The notes beneath the pieces were generated by a model that did no database searches, was not told where the DNA came from, and saw only the letters and a list, made by a program, of their open reading frames with translations. A program made the translations under genes and the position numbers. Positions 20,560-41,859 of a DNA stretch of 64,000 nt are shown here, in pieces. Source of the stretch: an uncultured Ruminococcus sp. (GTDB taxonomy: Bacteria > Bacillota > Clostridia > Oscillospirales > Acutalibacteraceae); contig CADBZY010000005.1 in the NCBI GenBank assembly GCA_902799245.1, positions 1 to 64,000 on the forward strand. Reading direction: 5' to 3'. Within the stretch, counting starts at the first letter, position 1, and each line of letters begins with the position of its first letter.

Positions 20560-22026
20560 TTACACTTCGGTTATCAGCTCTGTCAGTTCATCGGGTTCTG
20601 TCTGCTTGGGTGTATTATCCAGCAGTTTTTCGAAATAATCCCGAAGCCCCGGCAGATCCTCTACATCAAGCTTTTTGAGCAGATTGCGGCTCTGGGCACG
20701 GACGGTGTTGCGGGAGAGCATCATCTTGTCGGGAAGCTGTTCCATGGTGTAGCCGCCAAGGACGACGAGATCGAGAATGTATTTCTCGCGCTCACTTAGC
20801 TGCATTTCCTCCGAAATGCTGATGATAAGCTCTCTGAGATGACGGTGATGTTCCAGACTCTCCTGGGTCAGTCCGTATTTTTTGAGCAGAGAGAATACCG
20901 CGGGACCGCCAATGACAAGCAGAGAACCTATCGCCATGATGATCAGATTTTTGTTCCTGATCGGCAGATAGTAAATGAAAATATCCGCGGCCAACCGCGC
21001 CGCGATCACACAGGCGTATCCGAATGTCGCGTAGAACATGGGGTGCTGTCTGTCCATGGCGAAATGAATGATGAAGATATAGACAAACACAGCAAAGCAC
21101 GCCTGCCCGATAAAGCTGCATACCAGGAACACCGTTTCTTCCGTGCGGGAGAAATAGGGGAGCTGGAGCATGATCGCCGTAATTGCCATAAAGCACACTC
21201 CGTAGACATAGAGCGGCGTTACCTTGTGGAATTTGACAAACATAGCGATGATAAGAGCCGCGGCGACATAAGGAATATAGGTATAAAGCCCGTAATTGCG
21301 GAAGATGGGGACATACATCTCGTAGCCGAGTGTATTGATTCTGCCAAGACACAGATAGTAGAGTCCCGCCAGCACAAAGAGCAGCCAGTAGGCGCCGGGA
21401 ATATTCCTCATCAGTATTTTGTGGGAGGCTTCGGAGTAGCTGATAATGGGCATCTGCTCCCTTGAGAAGCCGGAGGAACGCACTGTCAGCAGCACGAGCG
21501 CTCCCGAAAGAATGGCAAGGGCGTAGATGCCGCGTGTCATATCCATGTATGTATAGATCAGATGATCGGCGTATCTCACAAGACCGCCTATGGCAATGCC
21601 TCCCGCCACGGCGAAGAGTCTGTGGCTTACTCTTATGCTGAGCAGACGAGAGAAAATGGCAAGCACTCCGAACGCCGCGCATATGCCCGTAATGACCGAA
21701 TATATGCTGAACGAATCGGCGTTTGTAAAGGCGAGAGCGATGCCGCTTTCCGCCATCAGTATGGCGGGAACGACCCTGAAATATCTGTGCCCGAGCAGTC
21801 CCTCAAAATCCAGATGGAACATAAGCATGAGCATAACGCCGAGCGTGACTGCAAGTGACGCGCCGAACAGGATGTTTGTCACCTCATAAAGCGACGACGT
21901 GCCGTAAATTTCCAGGCTTTTTTCGCAGATGAATTTTACCGTCAGGTACCAGCCGATAAATCCGCCGATACATACCGCGCCGCCTATGGAGCTTTTTGTA
22001 AAGTTTCCGAATAATTTGTTTATCAC
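20560..22026 (-). CDS. Polytopic membrane protein with C-terminal LuxR-type HTH
   Basis: A protein of about 488 residues. The first 390 residues hold some twelve hydrophobic segments in a transporter-like layout. The last 75 residues form a LuxR/GerE helix-turn-helix (LSEREKYILDLVVLGGYTMEQL, SRNTVRAQSRNLLKKL). This makes it a one-component, membrane-bound regulator that may sense a ligand through its membrane domain. Its targets are unknown. The start is placed at GTG 22026, 9 bases after GGAGG; the ATG pair at 22047 has no ribosome-binding site. Confidence 0.75.
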   Translation of the reverse strand: MINKLFGNFTKSSIGGAVCIGGFIGWYLTVKFICEKSLEIYGTSSLYEVTNILFGASLAVTLGVMLMLMFHLDFEGLLGHRYFRVVPAILMAESGIALAFTNADSFSIYSVITGICAAFGVLAIFSRLLSIRVSHRLFAVAGGIAIGGLVRYADHLIYTYMDMTRGIYALAILSGALVLLTVRSSGFSREQMPIISYSEASHKILMRNIPGAYWLLFVLAGLYYLCLGRINTLGYEMYVPIFRNYGLYTYIPYVAAALIIAMFVKFHKVTPLYVYGVCFMAITAIMLQLPYFSRTEETVFLVCSFIGQACFAVFVYIFIIHFAMDRQHPMFYATFGYACVIAARLAADIFIYYLPIRNKNLIIMAIGSLLVIGGPAVFSLLKKYGLTQESLEHHRHLRELIISISEEMQLSEREKYILDLVVLGGYTMEQLPDKMMLSRNTVRAQSRNLLKKLDVEDLPGLRDYFEKLLDNTPKQTEPDELTELITEV

Positions 22027-22162
22027 CTGTCGATACCTCCGCATCATTTATTGTATGCATAATATATCAATATAATAATACCATGAATTTATGGATTATT
22101 CAATAACCAATGAGAATTTTTTAACAAAATAAAAAAATAATTTAAAGTAATATACAAAACAC

Positions 22163-22603: not shown

Positions 22604-22747
22604 GCTGACCCATTACTGACCGTGCCTTGCGGAAGGTACGGGATTCAAAAATACGTGCATTTTATGCGGTGTTCTTCTCTATTGATGAATGCCGCATTTT
22701 TATGTCAATGCAGTCCGGCAGGATTGTTAGAAGGAGAATTGATAGAA

Positions 22748-23494
22748 ATGTTTGATAATACTGCATGTGTATTCGGAGAATTAAAGAAAATGGCGGCGTT
22801 GGGGCTGGCTGCGGCCCTGATGTTGTCTGCCGTCGTGTCATGTACCCCGAAGAATGATGCCTCCGGGAAGAACAACACCTCATCGCTGAGCGAAAAGGAC
22901 GAACAGTCTTTGGACGCGTTTCTTGTCCGGTTTATCAAAGGCTATCCGGTTTCGTCCGACGGCAAATGGGAATACGACTGTTCCGCTCCGCTTAAGTCGG
23001 ATACCAACATCTTAGCCTGCATCGTCCATCCGACTGCCTGTGATGACTGGACACTTTATTCCGACATCCCGGAGGAGGAATGTTTTATTGAAAAATCAGA
23101 CGATCCGCGGGGATGGGCGAAGGAGACGTATTCCTATAATATGTATGACGCTGAGACGGTGGAGTTTATTGCCCGTGAGATCTTTCATCTGAGTGAAAAC
23201 GATATGCAGGTGTTGACGCAGCTCGGCGAGAGTAAGCATCTGTTTTATAAGGAATCCGGAAAATATTATACCGTCTCAGAGGGAATGAATGATGCCTTCG
23301 CCGACATCCGTCTGATTTCCGTTGAAGAGGAAGGCGGCAGATACTTGGTTCAGTTTGACGCAAACTTCCTCCAAAAAACGGACAACAGCGATGAATATAT
23401 ATCAGTTTCCGGCAAATGCCGCGCCGAAATGGGGCTTAAGAATGTCGGAGGCAGGCAATATTGGTCTCTTTACCATTTCAATAACGTAGATTAG
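22748..23494 (+). CDS. Lipoprotein of unknown function
   Basis: A 248-residue predicted lipoprotein: signal segment from about residue 15 and Cys32 in SAVVSC, then a Ser/Asn/Lys linker and a soluble domain of about 200 residues with no family I can name. Part of the acidic domain reads YSYNMYDAETVEFIAREIF. ATG 22748 follows AAGGAG at 11 bases; a longer open frame extends upstream without a ribosome-binding site. Confidence 0.65.
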   Translation: MFDNTACVFGELKKMAALGLAAALMLSAVVSCTPKNDASGKNNTSSLSEKDEQSLDAFLVRFIKGYPVSSDGKWEYDCSAPLKSDTNILACIVHPTACDDWTLYSDIPEEECFIEKSDDPRGWAKETYSYNMYDAETVEFIAREIFHLSENDMQVLTQLGESKHLFYKESGKYYTVSEGMNDAFADIRLISVEEEGGRYLVQFDANFLQKTDNSDEYISVSGKCRAEMGLKNVGGRQYWSLYHFNNVD

Positions 23495-23670: not shown

Positions 23671-24999
23671 TTGAGCGAGGCAAACAAAATACTTATCCGG
23701 GCGGCTGCTGAATCCAACGTTGGCAACGCGAGAGGAAACAATGAGGATAATGTTTATTTCAACGGTGATTACATAACCCCAAGGAATATTGCCAGACCGT
23801 TTGCCATCAAGACCGGAGACTACACTGACGTCAATATTTTCGCCGTGTTTGACGGAATGGGTCGCAACAATACAGGCTCTTTTGCTTCGCTTGTCGCGGC
23901 TACCAAGCTCGATAACCTTGCCGACCGCATTTCATTTGACCCTGACGCGACGCCAGACGATGCCGTGCTTGAATACATGCAGGAAACAAACGAGCTGATC
24001 CGCGACCAGCGCAGGGAAACCGGCGGCGTCCGCACCGCTTCCACGATGGCTTTGCTGATCATTGAGCACGGCAACGCGCATGTATATAATGTAGGTGACA
24101 GCCGCGTTTATCTTTACCGCGACAAACAGCTTGTCAAGCTCACCCGCGACCATGTGGCGGTGGAGGGACAGAAAAGCGTCGCTCTCACCGAGGAAGGCAT
24201 CCGCCATGGAAGGATCACCAAATTCCTCGGCATGAACAGCCGCGAGGGTAAGATGGAACCTTACCGCGCCAAGCCCTTCAAGGTCAAGAAGGGAGACAAG
24301 TTCCTTGTCTGCAGCGATGGCGTTTCCGACCAGCTTGATGAGGACGAGCTTACCGTCTGTCTTGCCAAGCGCAAGGATCCTTTCGGACACACCAATGAGC
24401 TGATGGCGCTCTCCATGAGCGATGACAGTGACGACAACGTATCCGCCATTGTGGTGGAGGCGATAGAGCCGGGTATTCATATCACCCAGAATATGATCAT
24501 GGTCATGGTCGGTTGTCTGATCATGATGTTCGGCGTTGCCGTGGGCTTTGTATTCGGATGGCTCGTGGGCAGCACTTCCTCGGAATATGAGGGATTGAAC
24601 GATTACGACAGCGGTTACTATAATATGGAGGTAATCAAGGGTGTCAGCGGCTCGGATCTTTCGTCAGAAGTCACCGAGGTCAGCAATGTTTCCTCTACCA
24701 TACCTACTACGGTTCCGAACAAGGAAGAGACAAGCTCAGAGGATGTGCAATACACCGTTTACGGTCTGACGCTGCGTCAGAGCAACGATATTACCCTCAA
24801 ACGCGGCAAGAGCGTCAAGCTCTCGGTGGAAATCAATCCCGACAACGTTCCGCAAAGCTATGTGCAGTGGAGTTCCGACAACGAAAAGGTTGCCACGGTT
24901 GACGAAAACGGAAAGGTTGTGGCCAAGAAGAAGGGAAAGGCTACCATTACGGCGAGAGCCGGCGGCAGGACAGCCACATGCCTGATACGTGTACCGTAA
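23671..24999 (+). CDS. Membrane-tethered PP2C phosphatase with external Big_2 domain
   Basis: A 443-residue protein. Residues 1-268 are a PP2C Ser/Thr phosphatase with metal ligands in NNEDN (Asp26), VFDGMG (Asp61), CSDGVSDQL (Asp217) and DSDDN. Residues 275-300 are a transmembrane helix. Residues 362-442 are a bacterial Ig-like (Big_2) domain ending in GKATITARAGG, placed outside the cell. The start is TTG 23671 with GAGGTGAG 7 bases upstream. The giant repeat-protein gene follows 85 bases later with no terminator, so a shared transcript and a functional link are likely. Confidence 0.85.
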   Translation: MSEANKILIRAAAESNVGNARGNNEDNVYFNGDYITPRNIARPFAIKTGDYTDVNIFAVFDGMGRNNTGSFASLVAATKLDNLADRISFDPDATPDDAVLEYMQETNELIRDQRRETGGVRTASTMALLIIEHGNAHVYNVGDSRVYLYRDKQLVKLTRDHVAVEGQKSVALTEEGIRHGRITKFLGMNSREGKMEPYRAKPFKVKKGDKFLVCSDGVSDQLDEDELTVCLAKRKDPFGHTNELMALSMSDDSDDNVSAIVVEAIEPGIHITQNMIMVMVGCLIMMFGVAVGFVFGWLVGSTSSEYEGLNDYDSGYYNMEVIKGVSGSDLSSEVTEVSNVSSTIPTTVPNKEETSSEDVQYTVYGLTLRQSNDITLKRGKSVKLSVEINPDNVPQSYVQWSSDNEKVATVDENGKVVAKKKGKATITARAGGRTATCLIRVP

Positions 25000-25084
25000 A
25001 TTATTGTTTGTGATTATTTGTGATTATCTATAATTTATCGAATATGTCGCCGTCTGTCCGGCGATGGGAAGGATGGTCGTAAAG

Positions 25085-28000
25085 TTGGCTTTTTTCAAGA
25101 GATTCAAAAATCAGAATACGAAAAAACGCTACGAAAATCCTGCTGTCAATCAAGCAATTGATGAAATAAACAAGCGCAAGGAAACAGAAAACGCAGGCAG
25201 CGCACCGGAAAAGAAGTCCGCTCCGGTTTCTTTTGCCGAAAAGTCTTCGGAAAAAAGAAGCGGTGAATTTGCGCCTGTACTTGCATTTGACCCGAGCGGA
25301 GCCGGCGTGGAGAATCTGGTGTACAAACCCGCGCCGATCAATCCCAAGGCTTCACGCTCCGAGCAGTTTGACAAGGAAATGGAAAACCTGGCCGGAATAT
25401 ACGGTGTGGACAAGGCCGAGTCGGAAAGCTACGCCGAAAGTCCCGCGCCAATTATTCCTTCTATGGCGGCCGCTTCTGAGCCTGCACCGGTTCCGATACG
25501 CAGACTTGCGGGGAGCGGTGAATCGCTTGCTTTCATGGATCTGAGCGACCGCACCGATCTGCAGCCGGAAGAGATAGAAGAGGCAAGCGAGATATTCGGC
25601 ATCAAATATCCCGCTGGATTCCGGACCGACCTTGTCAATTACGCGGGAAGGGAGATCGATCTCAGCGATTTCAGCCTGGTGGAAAACCTGCGCTGGAAGC
25701 ATATTGAGAATGCTTCAGACATCAGCGGAATTGTCTTTCCCTCGACGATAGACACCGATTCCTTCAATTTCTACGACAGAAACATCAGCGGCTGCGATTT
25801 CAGTTCCGTCTACGGCCTGCGCTGGAGGCATATCCAGAATGCCCGCGACATCGCCGCCGTCAAATATCCCGCCACCTTTGACATTGACAACGCCGTATTT
25901 GCCGCAAGAAACATTTCCGGCAGCGATTTCAGCCTGATTGGGAGCCTTCGCTGGGAGCACATTATGAGCGCCTCCGACATCAGGGGAATCAAGTACCCGG
26001 CTTCCTTCGACACTTCCGAGGCAAAATATTACGGAAGAGACATCTCCGGAAGCGATTTTTCGCTCTGCAAGGGGCTGAAATGGAGCCACATCAGCCTAGC
26101 TGCCGACCTCAGCGGCATTATTTATCCCGATAATTTTGACTACAGCGAATGCGACTTTACCGATATAGACGTTTCCGGCAGCGATTTTTCCAAGGCTGAC
26201 ACGCTGCAATGGAGCCAGCTTGCAAATGCCTACGATATTACAGGCATCAAGTACCCTGCCGGCTTTGACCCGGACAGCGCGGATTTTTCCGGCAAGGATA
26301 TTTCGGGCAGCAATTTCAGCCGCGTGGCAGGCCTGCAATTTGCACATATCAGACCTGCCAAGAACATCAGAAAGATTGTTTATCCGCCGCAGTTTGACAT
26401 AGACAACGCGGATTTTACCGACCGGGACATCGACCGTTCCGACTTTTCGCTGCTTCCCGGCTTCAACTGGGACAGTGTGAGATTTGCCTCCAGCAGGGAT
26501 AACGTGATATACCCCGCCGGATTTGTCGAGCCAGTGCCTTCCGACGATGATGTGGAGGGCGCTATGCTGATCTATCTGCTCCGGCTCTACAGCCGCGTGC
26601 AGCAGGATCAGTTCAGCACGGAAGCGTTTTACGCCGACATAACCGCTCTCTATCCCGGTCTTACCGACTCCGACGCCGCTGTGCTGATCGAGCGGTCGAC
26701 CGCGAAATGGGAGAGGAAAAACGGCGCACGCCTGATCCGTTCGGATGCGCGCTGTGCCCACACCGGCGACAAGCTCTTCATGACAAAATTAGGCTTCAAG
26801 CTGTTGTATCCCGTCTGCGGAGGAGAAACGGCCGCTCAGATTCTGCGTGAGTCGTTCGGAGACATTATCCGCACACGCGAACAGGAGAAGTTCGAACAGA
26901 GACTTTACGACCTGCAATGCGGCAAATATCTCTCGGCCGCCGAGCTGACAGAAATCGGATTCATGCCGGGCAAGCTGCCGCAGAAGGCGGAGCTTCATGT
27001 CGTCGTCGATAAGCCAAAGAGGGTTCTTCCGGTTCCCACAGAGCTGGAAAGCATGGAGGAAAACGAGCGCAGCACCCGAGTCCGCGCCGTTCCGATGACG
27101 GAGCCTCTGGTTCCGCCGGAGGTTTCTCCCCTCACGGAAATTGCCGACAGAGTCAAGGTAAAGGTTGTGCAGTCGGAGGCTCCGATTTTAGCTTCGGTCA
27201 AGCCGATAGACGCCGCGACTTTACTTTCCGGGCAAAAAAAGGACGAACAGCCGGAGTCGGAGCAGGAGCCGCAGACAGAGGAGACGGCCGATTCTGTTGA
27301 AACGGCGATACCTTCTCAGCCGGAGGAACCCGAACCGGAGCCGGAAGAAGAACCGCTGCCCGAACCGGAGCCAGAACCCGTTTCCGAGCCGGAGACGCCG
27401 CCTGAGAATCCGGAGAATGACCAGCCCGATACAGTTACAGACTTCGAGCCTGTCAATATAGAAGAATACACCGGGAGCAAGCCGCAGGAGCCGCAGCCCA
27501 GAGGCTACAGCTTCGGTGAACGGGTCGCTCCTATCGATGTGGACATCGACACGCCCGCGATGGACGATCAGCAGGAATCCGAGCTGACGTATATTCCCAT
27601 CTCACAGACCGAGCCTTTGCAGGAATACACACCCAAGCAGCCCGAACCGGAGGAGCCTGAAGTCGAGGAACCATCCCCTGTCGGAGAAGCCATCGGCGTA
27701 CGCGAAGAAAGCTTCGAGCCGGTACAGATTCGCATTGATAAACTGCGTGACGCCACTGCCGAGGACGCCGGTGAAAAGCTGCGCCGCAAGAAGCTCAGCG
27801 ACGAGGAAAAGGCCATACGCACAGGCGTGATGGGGATGCTGCTCTATATCAATCAGAGCATAACCGATTCTGACCTCACCAATTCGGAGCTTTTCAGCGA
27901 ATTCATGCGCATCTATCCCGGCGCGCAGCCGAAGGAAACGGCGGCGATGGCTCAGTTTGCCGCCAATACACTCAGCGGCATCAACGCAAAGACACGTTCC

Positions 28001-30832
28001 AAGCTCTTCATGTTCGCGACCAAAGCGGAGCCTGCCGTCAAGAGAAGCCTGATGGACTTTGCCCTCGAACGCTACAGCTACAAGCTGCGGGTCGCTGAGG
28101 ACGAGACTTCCTTCCGGGATTTCCTGCAGACGCTGTGTACCACTCTCTTTGAAGAGGCTGGAGATTATGAGTATTCATCGTTTCTTCTCTCCAAGGGCAT
28201 TCCCAAGGATCCGCCCGAGCAGCGTGAAGCGCATTACAAACAGATTCCCTTCGAGCGTGGCGTGGGCAAGGCCAACCTCTACGCCAATACCCGTTATCCC
28301 TATTACCGCACTCTCGAACAGGTCGGATTTTCCCATTTTACCTTTGAGGCCATCCGCGACAGCCTGAAAATCGAACTGAGCGACAGCCATTATTATGAGG
28401 AATTGGAGGATCTCGTATACCGCAAGTGTGAGCCTACCCTGATGAAATTCGTGGTCATTGAAACCACTATGGGGCTGCTCTATCTCGAACAGAGAACGCT
28501 CGCCGACTGGGGCGTGGACGAGGAGTTTGTCTGGCGCGCAGCCGAAAACAACATGAAGAATGCCCAGTTCCGCGCGAAATATTCCTTCAGCACCGAGACA
28601 TGCAGTCCGTTCAGGTACATTCAGCATGATCTGGCGAGCTTTGTGCTTGCTCTGCCGGAGAAGCTGAGCGAGCTCGCCGACGGACGCGACCTTATCCTTA
28701 CCGCGCCCTGTCGGGAAATCATCTACATCGATTACTACGAGCTTTCCTCTATCAGAGAGATGCTCAGCTTCAGTGCTCATTACGACTGCACCATTCAGCT
28801 CAGCGGCGACCAGTACGAGCATCCTTTCACCCCCGACGTATTTATTTATCACGCCGACGACGGCTCCCTTGAGCGTGTCAACGACGAAACATACATTCTG
28901 CTGGGCGATTCCGTCGCGCGGCGCGAGGTGCTCAAGTCAGTGCTTCCGCAGGATATGAAGGTGGACATTGACGCTATCGTCAGGCCAAAGAGTACCGACG
29001 AGATAGAAATAATCGGCGACGAAACCTACAATCTACAGGCTGCCGCCTTTACGATTCTCAGGCTTTACTCCGAGATGAACGGCGACACGGATTACACCCT
29101 GCCGCAGAATGCCGTCATGGCGGTGTTTGACGATCTGTTCATTTCCTTCGACGCGGTTTATCCGCAGGTTCGCGGCAGAGAGCAGCCTGATCCCATGCAG
29201 CACATTGACGACTGCGCCAGAATGGTGGCACGCGGAGGCAAGACCGTCTGCTGGCTGCTTGTGCAGGCGATTCAGCAGCTCTGCGGCGACGTCAATTACG
29301 AAACGCCGGCAAGCGCTACGATCCGACAGACCACACTGCGCGAGATTTACGGAGACAACGCCAACGCCGTATGGCTCAACTGCGCCACGGCGACGGAATT
29401 CCGCAGACGTTACGAGGCGGTGCGGCGTTATCATGAGATTCCGGTGGCCAATCAGCACCTCACTATTCTTGACGCCAAGGTCGAGGTCGCTATGCACGCG
29501 CTGGTGATGATCTTCCATCAGTTCGGGCAGCGTTACGCTCTCGGACAGGTGCGCAGACATCTGTATAAAATCATTCCCGACGTAAAATTCTGCTATGAGA
29601 TCAATCAGAGCGCGTGGCTTCCCGCTCCCGGTGACGACATTGACGTGGATGTGCAGTCCATCGGAATGATCTTCCGCGGCTTTGACAACGCGACGCAGGA
29701 GAATATTCTCACCGGACTCGCCAACGCCATCGGCGACCGCGATCTTGCCGAAGGCGGCTGGGGTCTGCTCTACTTCATCAAGTTTGTCAAATATGCATAC
29801 CTTGATCCCGCCGAAATGGTGGAGAGATATTTTATCTCACGCAGCAGGCTCATTCCCTCTCAGAATATTCTTAAGCAGCTGTATTACAAGGATCTCAACA
29901 ACGAATTCATCAAGCATATGCGCAAGTCGGTAAAGCAGGTTCTTTCCGAGTACGGCGACAGCTTTGAGGTTATCCGGAACACGCAGGTACGAGGCAGCGA
30001 GAATGAAAAGAACGCGCCTGTCGAGGACTTTGAGAATGTACTCAATTTTGCCCGCGAGATCGAGGAGAAAATGAGTGCTCCCGCCGAAGCTCCCGCAGAG
30101 GGCGAGATGATCAGCCTGCAGGGCAACCGGCCTATGGCGACAACCAAGCCGGATATTCAGCTGCGTCAGGTGGAAAACGGCTTCCTCGAAAAGCGCCTGA
30201 ATTTCGTGCTGGAATCGGTTGACGCAAAAATGGCGGATCAGCTGGTCGACGCGGCGCACTTTGTCACCAAGCTCTTCCATGTTCCCGAAATAGAATTCCG
30301 CGCCAACAACGACATAGAATGTGAGCTGCATTACGGCATCATCCGCAGCAAGAATCAGATTATCGCGCTTCGGTCGCTTGCGTGGACGGTGGCGCAGCTG
30401 ATGTATGAATCGGGACGCGAGCTGCGCGACGTCACCGAGCAGGATATTTACCGTGCCAACGACATTGTGGAGCAGTGCGACAGGAATAATTACAAGAAAT
30501 CCGGCGCGTTTCCGACACTTTGTTCCATGCCTGTGGACGAGGGCATGTATATTCCCGCCTATCAGGAATACATCTTCTTCGCGCAGGAGCTTATGCCGGA
30601 AGTCAAGCTGTCGAGTCTCTTCTCGCTGCAGCAGGAGCTTGCCGATATAGCGCCTATGATGAAGGTGGTTTACGACATACTCAAAGGCGAGAGGCGCGAC
30701 GGTCCGCTTCAACCGGGTACGGTGCTGGCCGACGCTCTCTGCGCATGGAGCGCCTATTGCTTCGCCGCAGTGGATTCCTTCGAGGTGGTCGCAGGCCCGT
30801 CCGCCTACAGCTTTGCTCAGATCAAGAGATAA
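25085..30832 (+). CDS. Giant cytoplasmic protein with 43-residue tandem repeats
   Basis: A 1915-residue protein with no signal peptide or membrane helix. From the chosen TTG start (AFFKRFKNQNTKKR follows the initiator, a common N terminus) the order is: disordered N terminus (1-155); tandem repeats of exactly 43 residues (about 156-480) with ISGSDFS-like motifs at 191, 234, 277, 320, 363, 406 and 449; a helical region (490-630); a Pro/Glu-rich linker (718-868); a second helical region; a segment at about 1093-1268 resembling DUF5688/DUF1444 proteins (LADWGVDEEFVWRAA, LILTAPCREIIYID); and about 650 unrecognised residues. It follows the PP2C gene. Function is unknown; a scaffold or signalling role is inference. 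Confidence 0.8.
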   Translation: MAFFKRFKNQNTKKRYENPAVNQAIDEINKRKETENAGSAPEKKSAPVSFAEKSSEKRSGEFAPVLAFDPSGAGVENLVYKPAPINPKASRSEQFDKEMENLAGIYGVDKAESESYAESPAPIIPSMAAASEPAPVPIRRLAGSGESLAFMDLSDRTDLQPEEIEEASEIFGIKYPAGFRTDLVNYAGREIDLSDFSLVENLRWKHIENASDISGIVFPSTIDTDSFNFYDRNISGCDFSSVYGLRWRHIQNARDIAAVKYPATFDIDNAVFAARNISGSDFSLIGSLRWEHIMSASDIRGIKYPASFDTSEAKYYGRDISGSDFSLCKGLKWSHISLAADLSGIIYPDNFDYSECDFTDIDVSGSDFSKADTLQWSQLANAYDITGIKYPAGFDPDSADFSGKDISGSNFSRVAGLQFAHIRPAKNIRKIVYPPQFDIDNADFTDRDIDRSDFSLLPGFNWDSVRFASSRDNVIYPAGFVEPVPSDDDVEGAMLIYLLRLYSRVQQDQFSTEAFYADITALYPGLTDSDAAVLIERSTAKWERKNGARLIRSDARCAHTGDKLFMTKLGFKLLYPVCGGETAAQILRESFGDIIRTREQEKFEQRLYDLQCGKYLSAAELTEIGFMPGKLPQKAELHVVVDKPKRVLPVPTELESMEENERSTRVRAVPMTEPLVPPEVSPLTEIADRVKVKVVQSEAPILASVKPIDAATLLSGQKKDEQPESEQEPQTEETADSVETAIPSQPEEPEPEPEEEPLPEPEPEPVSEPETPPENPENDQPDTVTDFEPVNIEEYTGSKPQEPQPRGYSFGERVAPIDVDIDTPAMDDQQESELTYIPISQTEPLQEYTPKQPEPEEPEVEEPSPVGEAIGVREESFEPVQIRIDKLRDATAEDAGEKLRRKKLSDEEKAIRTGVMGMLLYINQSITDSDLTNSELFSEFMRIYPGAQPKETAAMAQFAANTLSGINAKTRSKLFMFATKAEPAVKRSLMDFALERYSYKLRVAEDETSFRDFLQTLCTTLFEEAGDYEYSSFLLSKGIPKDPPEQREAHYKQIPFERGVGKANLYANTRYPYYRTLEQVGFSHFTFEAIRDSLKIELSDSHYYEELEDLVYRKCEPTLMKFVVIETTMGLLYLEQRTLADWGVDEEFVWRAAENNMKNAQFRAKYSFSTETCSPFRYIQHDLASFVLALPEKLSELADGRDLILTAPCREIIYIDYYELSSIREMLSFSAHYDCTIQLSGDQYEHPFTPDVFIYHADDGSLERVNDETYILLGDSVARREVLKSVLPQDMKVDIDAIVRPKSTDEIEIIGDETYNLQAAAFTILRLYSEMNGDTDYTLPQNAVMAVFDDLFISFDAVYPQVRGREQPDPMQHIDDCARMVARGGKTVCWLLVQAIQQLCGDVNYETPASATIRQTTLREIYGDNANAVWLNCATATEFRRRYEAVRRYHEIPVANQHLTILDAKVEVAMHALVMIFHQFGQRYALGQVRRHLYKIIPDVKFCYEINQSAWLPAPGDDIDVDVQSIGMIFRGFDNATQENILTGLANAIGDRDLAEGGWGLLYFIKFVKYAYLDPAEMVERYFISRSRLIPSQNILKQLYYKDLNNEFIKHMRKSVKQVLSEYGDSFEVIRNTQVRGSENEKNAPVEDFENVLNFAREIEEKMSAPAEAPAEGEMISLQGNRPMATTKPDIQLRQVENGFLEKRLNFVLESVDAKMADQLVDAAHFVTKLFHVPEIEFRANNDIECELHYGIIRSKNQIIALRSLAWTVAQLMYESGRELRDVTEQDIYRANDIVEQCDRNNYKKSGAFPTLCSMPVDEGMYIPAYQEYIFFAQELMPEVKLSSLFSLQQELADIAPMMKVVYDILKGERRDGPLQPGTVLADALCAWSAYCFAAVDSFEVVAGPSAYSFAQIKR
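25550..26524 (+). repeat. In-frame 129-bp tandem repeat array coding for 43-residue units
   Basis: Seven full units and a partial eighth occur in perfect 129-base register. The ISGSDFS-like motif begins at 25655, 25784, 25913, 26042, 26171, 26300 and 26429. Each unit also carries W-x-HI, A-x-DI-x-GI, YPA-x-FD and an aromatic before RDISG. The DNA copies have diverged, so this is an old protein repeat and not a recent duplication. Confidence 0.9.
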
Positions 30833-40116: not shown

Positions 40117-41859
40117 ATGGAATTCAAAGGTTTGTGCCTTGGCTGCATGAACAACAAGGGCGATGCTATGCAATGCCCTAAATGCGGCTATGTAGAGGGT
40201 ACGCCTCAGGTTTTGCCATACCTTGAACCCGGTACATTGCTCAAAGAAAAATATATCGTCGGCAAGCATCTCAGTGCGAACGGCGAAGGAGTCACCTACA
40301 TCGGATTTGACGTTACCACAAACAAGAAGATCACAGTAAGGGAGTATCTGCCCAAGACGCTGTGTTCGAGGGTCAAGGATGACGACAATATCATTATTGC
40401 CTCTGGAAACAAGCTGGTCTATCAGGATTATCTTCAGGATTTCATGGAGATCGGCAGAGCGCTGGCCAAGCTGTCGAGCCTTCCGTCGATTGTTCCGGTC
40501 ATAGATATGTTCGAGGCGAACAAGACCGCCTATATTGTTTACGAGTTTGTCGACGGCAAGCCGCTTGACGAGATTATCAAAAGGGCACGTCGTTTCACAT
40601 GGGAAGAAGCAAGACCGCTTTTCCTGCCGCTTATCTCTACCATCAATTCGGCACACGCCATAGGATTGGTTCATTTCGGCATTTCGCCCGAGAATATCAT
40701 TATGACACGCAGCGGAACACTGAAGCTGCAGGGCTTCGGAAGCCCTGACGCGCATCTGGCCGAGACAGAGCTTACCGCTGAATTCTATGAGGGTTTCAGC
40801 GCCATAGAGCAGTATTCGCTCGAAGGCAAGAAGGGTAAATGGACTGACGTTTACGCCATGTGCGCTGTGATTTTCTATGCGCTGACCGGTAAGAGACCGC
40901 CGGACGCGGTGTCCCGTTCTTATGAGCCACGTCTGAACATGCCCTCGGACGTTGCCCAGAATATTCCGACGCATGTCGTCACTGCACTTGCTGGGGGATT
41001 ACAGGTCAATATTGAAACACGTACACACTCCATGGAGGAGCTTAAGAATCAGTTTACCAATCCCGTTCCCCGCAGACCGGAACCGAAACCCGTTCCGGCA
41101 ACGGCGCCGACATCTTCTTCCGCTTACGGCGACAGATTTGTCGACGAGCCGCCGTACCAGGATTCCAACGCGCGTTCGGCCGTGCCTGCCGCGTCCGCGC
41201 AGATGAACCGTTCCACCGCGAGGGATTATGAGCCTGACGATGACGAACCGGAGATTTCTCCCTACAAATACGGCATTATTTCGGGTCTTATAGGTTTTGT
41301 GGTTCTCGGTGTGATTGCCTTGATTTGTCTGAACCTGATTGTTATACCCATGATGAACAAGAATAAAGAGGATGAAGGCGACGATGTTTCCTCCTCTTAT
41401 GTTGAGTCCGAGGGTGACAATACCGATTCCCAGCCGACGGTGCTCTACAGGGTGCCGAACCTTGTCAACAAAAAGTGGAGCAGCGTTGACGGCAACGAGA
41501 AGTACAGCAACTTCTATATCCGTCTGAAGGAAGAAGTCTACGATGAAAATTACGAGGAAGGCAGAATCATCTCGCAGACAGTAGAAGCAGGTTCCACTGT
41601 TCCGCAGAATACGCCTATCGGCGTGGTGGTCAGCAAAGGCTCCAAGATGCGCACCGTACCGAATATCATAGGAAAAACCGTTTCCGAAGCGTCAAAGGAA
41701 CTGGAAAGCGCGGGTCTTGCGCTCGGTGATCAGGCGGAGGAATACAGCGACGATGTTGAAAGCGGAAAGATCATCCGTCTCAACGGCATTGAACCCGGCA
41801 AGAAGATTCAGGCGGGCAGCATGATTAATGTTGTCGTCAGCCTCGGACCTGAGGACTAA
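40117..41859 (+). CDS. Zinc-ribbon pseudokinase with two PASTA domains
   Basis: A 580-residue protein. Residues 7-23 are a CxxC...CxxC zinc ribbon. Residues 40-312 align with the PknB-like kinases of Clostridia, but the catalytic residues are lost: the ATP-binding Lys is Arg75 (ITVREYLP), the HRD Asp is Gly188 (HFGISPENI), and the DFG Asp is Gly206 (LQGFGSP). A Pro-rich linker, a transmembrane helix (386-411) and two PASTA domains (445-508, 511-577) follow. PASTA domains bind muropeptides or lipid II, so this likely senses the wall without phosphorylating. AAGGAGAG precedes the ATG. Confidence 0.87.
   Translation: MEFKGLCLGCMNNKGDAMQCPKCGYVEGTPQVLPYLEPGTLLKEKYIVGKHLSANGEGVTYIGFDVTTNKKITVREYLPKTLCSRVKDDDNIIIASGNKLVYQDYLQDFMEIGRALAKLSSLPSIVPVIDMFEANKTAYIVYEFVDGKPLDEIIKRARRFTWEEARPLFLPLISTINSAHAIGLVHFGISPENIIMTRSGTLKLQGFGSPDAHLAETELTAEFYEGFSAIEQYSLEGKKGKWTDVYAMCAVIFYALTGKRPPDAVSRSYEPRLNMPSDVAQNIPTHVVTALAGGLQVNIETRTHSMEELKNQFTNPVPRRPEPKPVPATAPTSSSAYGDRFVDEPPYQDSNARSAVPAASAQMNRSTARDYEPDDDEPEISPYKYGIISGLIGFVVLGVIALICLNLIVIPMMNKNKEDEGDDVSSSYVESEGDNTDSQPTVLYRVPNLVNKKWSSVDGNEKYSNFYIRLKEEVYDENYEEGRIISQTVEAGSTVPQNTPIGVVVSKGSKMRTVPNIIGKTVSEASKELESAGLALGDQAEEYSDDVESGKIIRLNGIEPGKKIQAGSMINVVVSLGPED

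Follow-up and report, generated by a model that had tools for sequence, protein, structure and literature searches.

Does a giant bacterial protein built around a strictly periodic 43-residue repeat belong to a known solenoid class, and what does it do beside the phosphatase gene that accompanies it? The question is raised by positions 25085..30832 (+ strand) of a 64,000-nucleotide stretch of contig CADBZY010000005.1 from an uncultured Ruminococcus sp., the whole of which is called the window here. An earlier note on this DNA had read the gene as a 1915-aa frame opening at TTG 25085, with seven ISGSDFS-like motifs that start at 25655 to 26429 in exact 129-base steps; both observations were reproduced. 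The encoded protein, hereafter the giant, carries a repeat array for which a regular solenoid is predicted, and its gene directly follows a gene for a PP2C phosphatase. The pair suggests an undescribed bacterial phosphatase scaffold. Our tentative model, which we consider possible though short of probable, is that a rigid curved solenoid of ~16 coils fronts the giant, probably in the cytoplasm, and that the giant works with the membrane-anchored PP2C encoded upstream.

The repeat array and its predicted structure

The array opens with an N-terminal half-coil cap, SLAFMDLSD (25523..25549), which is followed by seven 43-residue units of two coils each (25550..26452, residues 163 to 463) and by a degenerate eighth unit serving as the C-terminal solenoid cap (26453..26530, residues 464 to ~489); these and all later features of the giant lie on the + strand, and its residue numbers are counted throughout from ATG 25064. 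Self-similarity at an offset of 43 reached +2.34 BLOSUM62 per residue, compared with a maximum of -0.37 over 1000 shuffles x 40 offsets, and the 43-residue period is far outside chance. Only 43 and 86 gave positive values among the 38 offsets listed. The repeats had been described as exact, which holds for their spacing and fails for their sequence, the mean unit-to-unit identity in the window being 45%. A second array in the window's own genome was not found at E <= 10.

We aligned 22 intact sequences, the window's included, 15 from its genus and seven from four other genera. Not one gap cell or insertion column occurred in the eight units of 43 columns (344 columns), and the period, the copy number, and the indel-free array were common to all 22 sequences. 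Excluded from alignments were the fragments L017, L018, L022, L024, and L030, as well as L013/L034, a same-genus relative interrupted by an in-frame TAG; the array is present in both L034 and L030, the latter with a gene cut off by the end of its contig, and their motif spacings were likewise consistent with 43. Each of the seven units in L041 is closest to the same-numbered unit of the window, so the array is of long standing, with no ongoing reshuffling of its units. Unit positions 4, 9, 12, 15, 18, 20, 21, 24, 25, 31, 36, and 39 to 42 make up a near-constant core, and positions 2, 10, 16, and 23 vary both between units and between species. Positions 1, 19, and 43 differ from unit to unit and are largely kept across species within one unit, a pattern that would be expected of unit-specific contacts.

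Structure prediction of the repeats, which the earlier note had proposed as a check, gave a regular solenoid, modeled with high confidence across the repeats. The note's idea of a stacked solenoid was borne out to this extent; its comparison with pentapeptide or beta-helix repeats of longer unit had to be corrected, since each unit is modeled not as one long coil but as two coils of ~21 and ~22 residues and structural superpositions (VIA-align) were led by leucine-rich repeat (LRR) horseshoes, not by beta-helices. In the model, units 3-6 share one pattern, with short helices at unit positions 6-9 and 26-28 and bridges at 14, 19, 35, and 40, giving each coil one short helix and a pair of bridges; units 0-2 deviate from it. 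DSSP assigned mostly isolated bridges rather than strands. The two-coil reading rests on the structure model because a half-unit periodicity (21 or 22 residues) is absent from the window sequence, and the halves of the unit profile agree at positions 14/35, 15/36, and 17/38 only. The array is predicted to be a rigid curved solenoid with an LRR-like shape and two coils per 43-residue unit.

Comparison with known solenoid classes

The earlier note knew of no named repeat family that fits the unit, and in the profile search that it had suggested the window protein matched no Pfam family at E <= 10. It is unlikely, in our judgment, that the giant is an ordinary LRR protein, e.g., BspA-like or ribonuclease inhibitor-like, whose drift has taken it past profile detection. 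The VIA-align matches to LRR proteins favor such an origin, the coil A core I-xx-I-x-Y-P-xx-F resembles the BspA-type LRR core, and two repeat types also alternate in ribonuclease inhibitor. The LRR core motif is LxxLxLxxN/CxL; its LxxLxL portion was present in coil A of 154/154 units, but position 9 of this core is N or C in just 23/154, the fourth core position of coil B is a small residue (S/C/T/A/G) in 154/154, and the bridges are mostly isolated where strands would be expected. No Pfam LRR model matched at E <= 10 in 16 relatives and 30 unit pairs, in searches whose HMMER filters drop most weak matches, and canonical LRR membership was rejected on the absent profile and the incomplete core motif. 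We regard as rather improbable a divergent pentapeptide-repeat protein, in which the ADFxx-RDISG-SDFSx stretch would be the pentapeptide repeat of a distorted four-sided beta-helix with inserts. Pfam Pentapeptide matched 7/16 relatives (best E 0.0075) and 7/30 unit pairs (best E 2.2e-4), and of the seven weak hits that the unit-pair profile gave among PDB sequences (E 0.24 to 8.5), five are pentapeptide/RFR proteins. The unit profile is also most self-similar at offset 5, and the bridges in the model are 5 residues apart. However, Zn_ribbon_13 outscored Pentapeptide on unit pairs (E 3.7e-5, 3/30) and on whole relatives (E 0.0013, 1/16), the window protein itself lacks any Pfam match at the threshold given above, the coils of units 3-6 hold two bridges, not four, together with a short helix, and LRR proteins head the structural matches. 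PMC7337050 defines the family by at least eight tandem pentapeptides, whereas the tandem run of x[DN][LFIVY]xx was at most 4 in 22/22 sequences. The NCBIfam Alr5209 pentapeptide model reached E 0.18 and 11.9 bits against a cut-off of 125, and no pentapeptide protein was named among the 50 VIA-align matches listed, a list that cannot exclude the family. Canonical membership (PF00805) was rejected on the tandem run and the profile, and the apparent pentapeptide echo in the repeat sequence is weak, at noise level by these scores.

By these features the repeat stands apart from the known LRR and pentapeptide families, and its coil looks like a hybrid, half pentapeptide-like and half LRR-like. With LRR horseshoes (ribonuclease inhibitor, 4peq; RipG4, 9j7j) the giant shares a curved solenoid and a short helix in most coils; residues 16-353 of its model superpose on residues 1-444 of the ribonuclease inhibitor chain, which by length would correspond to ~one coil per LRR. 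Unlike these horseshoes, it has ~21.5-residue coils in a fixed 43-residue pair, besides the differences in bridges, coil A position 9, and profile described above. Its resemblance to PF00805/RFR proteins lies in ~three pentapeptide-like steps per unit, bridges five apart, and weak profile matches, but it never has eight pentapeptides running and its coil is pentapeptide-like in one half only. Brevundimonas belongs to a different phylum from the organism of the window. The Knotted Solenoid of Brevundimonas is, like the giant, a solenoid confined to one bacterial group and outside standard families, but it is reported (PMC13123833) as a knotted beta-solenoid. Neither the 43-residue unit nor the giant-PP2C pair appeared in a title or abstract start among the literature matches listed, in a coverage outside which most subscription journals fall. 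The array adds an unusually strict solenoid, with seven indel-free copies of 43 residues in 22 sequences of five genera, and a half-pentapeptide, half-LRR coil would bear on the kinship of solenoid classes.

The PP2C partner and the proposed assembly

The partner gene (23671..24999, + strand; 442 aa) encodes a PP2C domain, one hydrophobic membrane segment recognized by eye, and a Big_2 Ig-like domain. PP2C_2 matched with E 1.4e-12 (48 bits, cut-off 24) and Big_2 with E 4.7e-16. The motifs NED, DGMG, and SDG/TDG were kept in 13/13 aligned sequences and DN in 12/13 (DS in L088); these are the PP2C metal-binding motifs. The profile and the metal-binding Asp motifs place the partner in the PP2C (PPM) family. 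Going beyond the earlier note, we found the PP2C gene directly upstream of the giant on the same strand in 17/17 loci of a genome-contig scan and in L064, L065, and L088 to L091 (23/23), and it was the only one of nine window genes searched that was found in all 23 loci. The absence of other neighbors is partly due to contig ends, a number of the loci being short or breaking off close to the pair. Of 100 family genomes, 72 gave some match to PP2C or Big_2, and five contained a full-length PP2C relative (E <= 1e-80, both domains); all five carry the giant, the remaining 95 not having been individually checked for it.

The presence of the giant is limited to few lineages, a further point that the earlier note did not cover. 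In the window's genus, 17/17 other genomes searched gave a match (split over two contigs in two genomes, interrupted by an in-frame TAG in one), and within the genus the giant has the distribution of a core gene. The same search included 42 genomes of other genera, where G028 has the giant and G043 and G059 gave weak partial matches. A family sample contained it in 14/398 genomes and 5/135 genera, the window's own included. Order samples (1/394, and 1/295 with the C-terminal half) and a phylum sample searched with the unit-pair profile (1/398) returned the window's own genome only. The gene pair is lineage-specific. The 17 contig-scan loci, largely the same assemblies as the same-genus genomes searched, are assigned to uncultured Ruminococcus, Clostridia, Clostridiales, Oscillospiraceae, or Bacillota, and two of them come from goat omasum and abomasum.

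In the proposed assembly, the PP2C would span the membrane, its Ig-like domain facing outward and its catalytic domain inward, and the giant would dock at the membrane face via its basic N-terminus. The solenoid could hold phosphoprotein substrates or the PP2C itself, and a further binding or effector activity could reside in the C-terminal half of the giant. We infer this location, together with the giant-PP2C contact, the delivery of substrates, and the direction of control. Phosphoprotein substrates are plausible because 5/5 genomes tested hold protein kinases. The basic N-terminal segment, MAFFKRFK (25085..25108), is conserved, reading MA[FI]FK[RQ] in most relatives seen with A9 and F11 invariant in 22/22 sequences, and is perhaps a membrane-surface anchor. 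The frame 25064..30832 is uninterrupted, and a start at ATG 25064 would add seven residues (1922 aa); TTG 25085 fits better, since GGGAAGGA (25066-25073) precedes it and in L036 and L037 no start codon of the frame comes before the matching TTG.

PHLPP is a eukaryotic LRR-phosphatase assembly in which an LRR-shaped protein is coupled to a Ser/Thr phosphatase. The SHOC2-PP1c-MRAS complex (7upi, among the VIA-align matches listed) shows the same coupling, like the proposed pair. The giant differs from SHOC2/PHLPP in its repeat and in that its putative partner phosphatase stands apart from it, as a membrane protein bearing an Ig-like domain, and any likeness would be convergent. It is doubtful whether the two proteins form an undescribed holoenzyme, in which a membrane PP2C whose Ig-like domain senses the exterior and a giant with a fixed-length hybrid-coil solenoid would select substrates, much like SHOC2/PHLPP in animals, through an independently evolved repeat bridging two solenoid classes. 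The repeat-phosphatase tie offers a testable handle on Ser/Thr signaling in gut Clostridia, where, to our knowledge, few phosphatase targeting subunits are known.

The giant may instead be a structural scaffold with its own role in cell shape, envelope, or compartment, the PP2C being a merely co-expressed neighbor. Its very large size, its modular build with a long variable linker, and its fixed copy number, which recalls a ruler or frame, are consistent with this, as is a giant-PP2C contact that is itself conjectural. Nevertheless, the pairing persists across five genera with differing surroundings and, in the 100 family genomes, the full-length PP2C type was seen only where the giant is known, making a free-standing scaffold somewhat unlikely. 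Patchy occurrence in the family (14/398 genomes) could also point to an anti-phage or other conflict system, but the core-gene behavior within the genus speaks against it, none of 16 relatives hit a PADLOC model at E <= 10, and viral contigs contained no confirmed relative; we consider such a role very improbable. The PADLOC result led us to reject identity with a defense system, and the lack of a confirmed viral relative to reject a phage origin. The pairing of the giant with the membrane PP2C remains our preferred model.

Remainder of the giant and neighboring genes

The rest of the giant had been called mostly unrecognized, in agreement with our Pfam, NCBIfam, PADLOC, and PDB-sequence searches, in which no match to the C-terminal half was taken as real. 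A helical domain is predicted behind the solenoid (26531..26998, residues 490-645); at profile level it weakly resembles residues 905-1060 (E 1.9e-4, probability 22.5), the sole non-trivial similarity among 21 comparisons. A variable linker (26999..27775, residues 646-904), its middle Pro/Glu-rich by eye, joins the two halves. Conservation is strong throughout the C-terminal half; its first part (27776..29983, residues 905-1640) has no convincing family match, and the model of residues 905-1922, with a predicted local distance difference test (pLDDT) value of 35.2, was kept out of structure searches. A HpyAIV restriction enzyme match in 11/16 relatives (best E 0.031; residues 1590-1650 of the giant in the window) was taken as noise, as were the weak Zn_ribbon_13, CDIF630_02480-like, and PsaE matches. 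DUF1444 (YtpQ, PF07285), considered for residues 1060-1320, was dropped for want of profile support: PF07285 did not match the giant at E <= 10 in 13 same-genus genomes (20 searched), and its single match, in G004 (E 0.19), lay outside the giant. The C-terminal domain (30134..30829, residues 1691-1922) has a distant likeness to L020 of G043, an otherwise different protein, part of which matches the last 200 residues of the giant with 29% identity (E 2.3e-7). L020 (1-2895, - strand) is a large uncharacterized protein from a different family within the order, and its BRCT match falls below the threshold.

Other genes recur less regularly around the pair. A gene divergent from it (20560-22047, - strand) encodes a protein that by eye crosses the membrane several times and carries a LuxR-type DNA-binding domain at its C-terminus; it was rejected as a third partner, being present in 14/17 loci and L089-L091 and missing from L036, L037, L041, L064, L065, and L088. 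The protein encoded at 40117-41859 (+ strand) combines two PASTA stretches and, by eye, one membrane segment with a kinase-like domain that reads HFG and GFG where the usual kinase catalytic motifs are HRD and DFG, and by these motifs it is likely a pseudokinase. It found a match at E <= 1e-15 in 23/24 genomes, some to other kinases, and was dropped as a third partner because related genes occur in five genomes in which the search had found no giant and the giant-bearing G477 gave no match. YfhO is present in 9/17 loci. Eight other neighbor genes (from L037, L064, L065, and L088), used as queries, matched their own locus only. ClpP, ClpX, and trigger-factor genes, identified by eye, neighbor the pair in L041, whereas L088 has a polysaccharide deacetylase near it and L064 an LRR_4 protein. 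A putative lipoprotein gene (22622-23494, + strand; by eye) closely precedes the PP2C gene; it occurs in 10/17 loci and is far less conserved than its neighbors, with 37 to 54% identity, one short piece apart.
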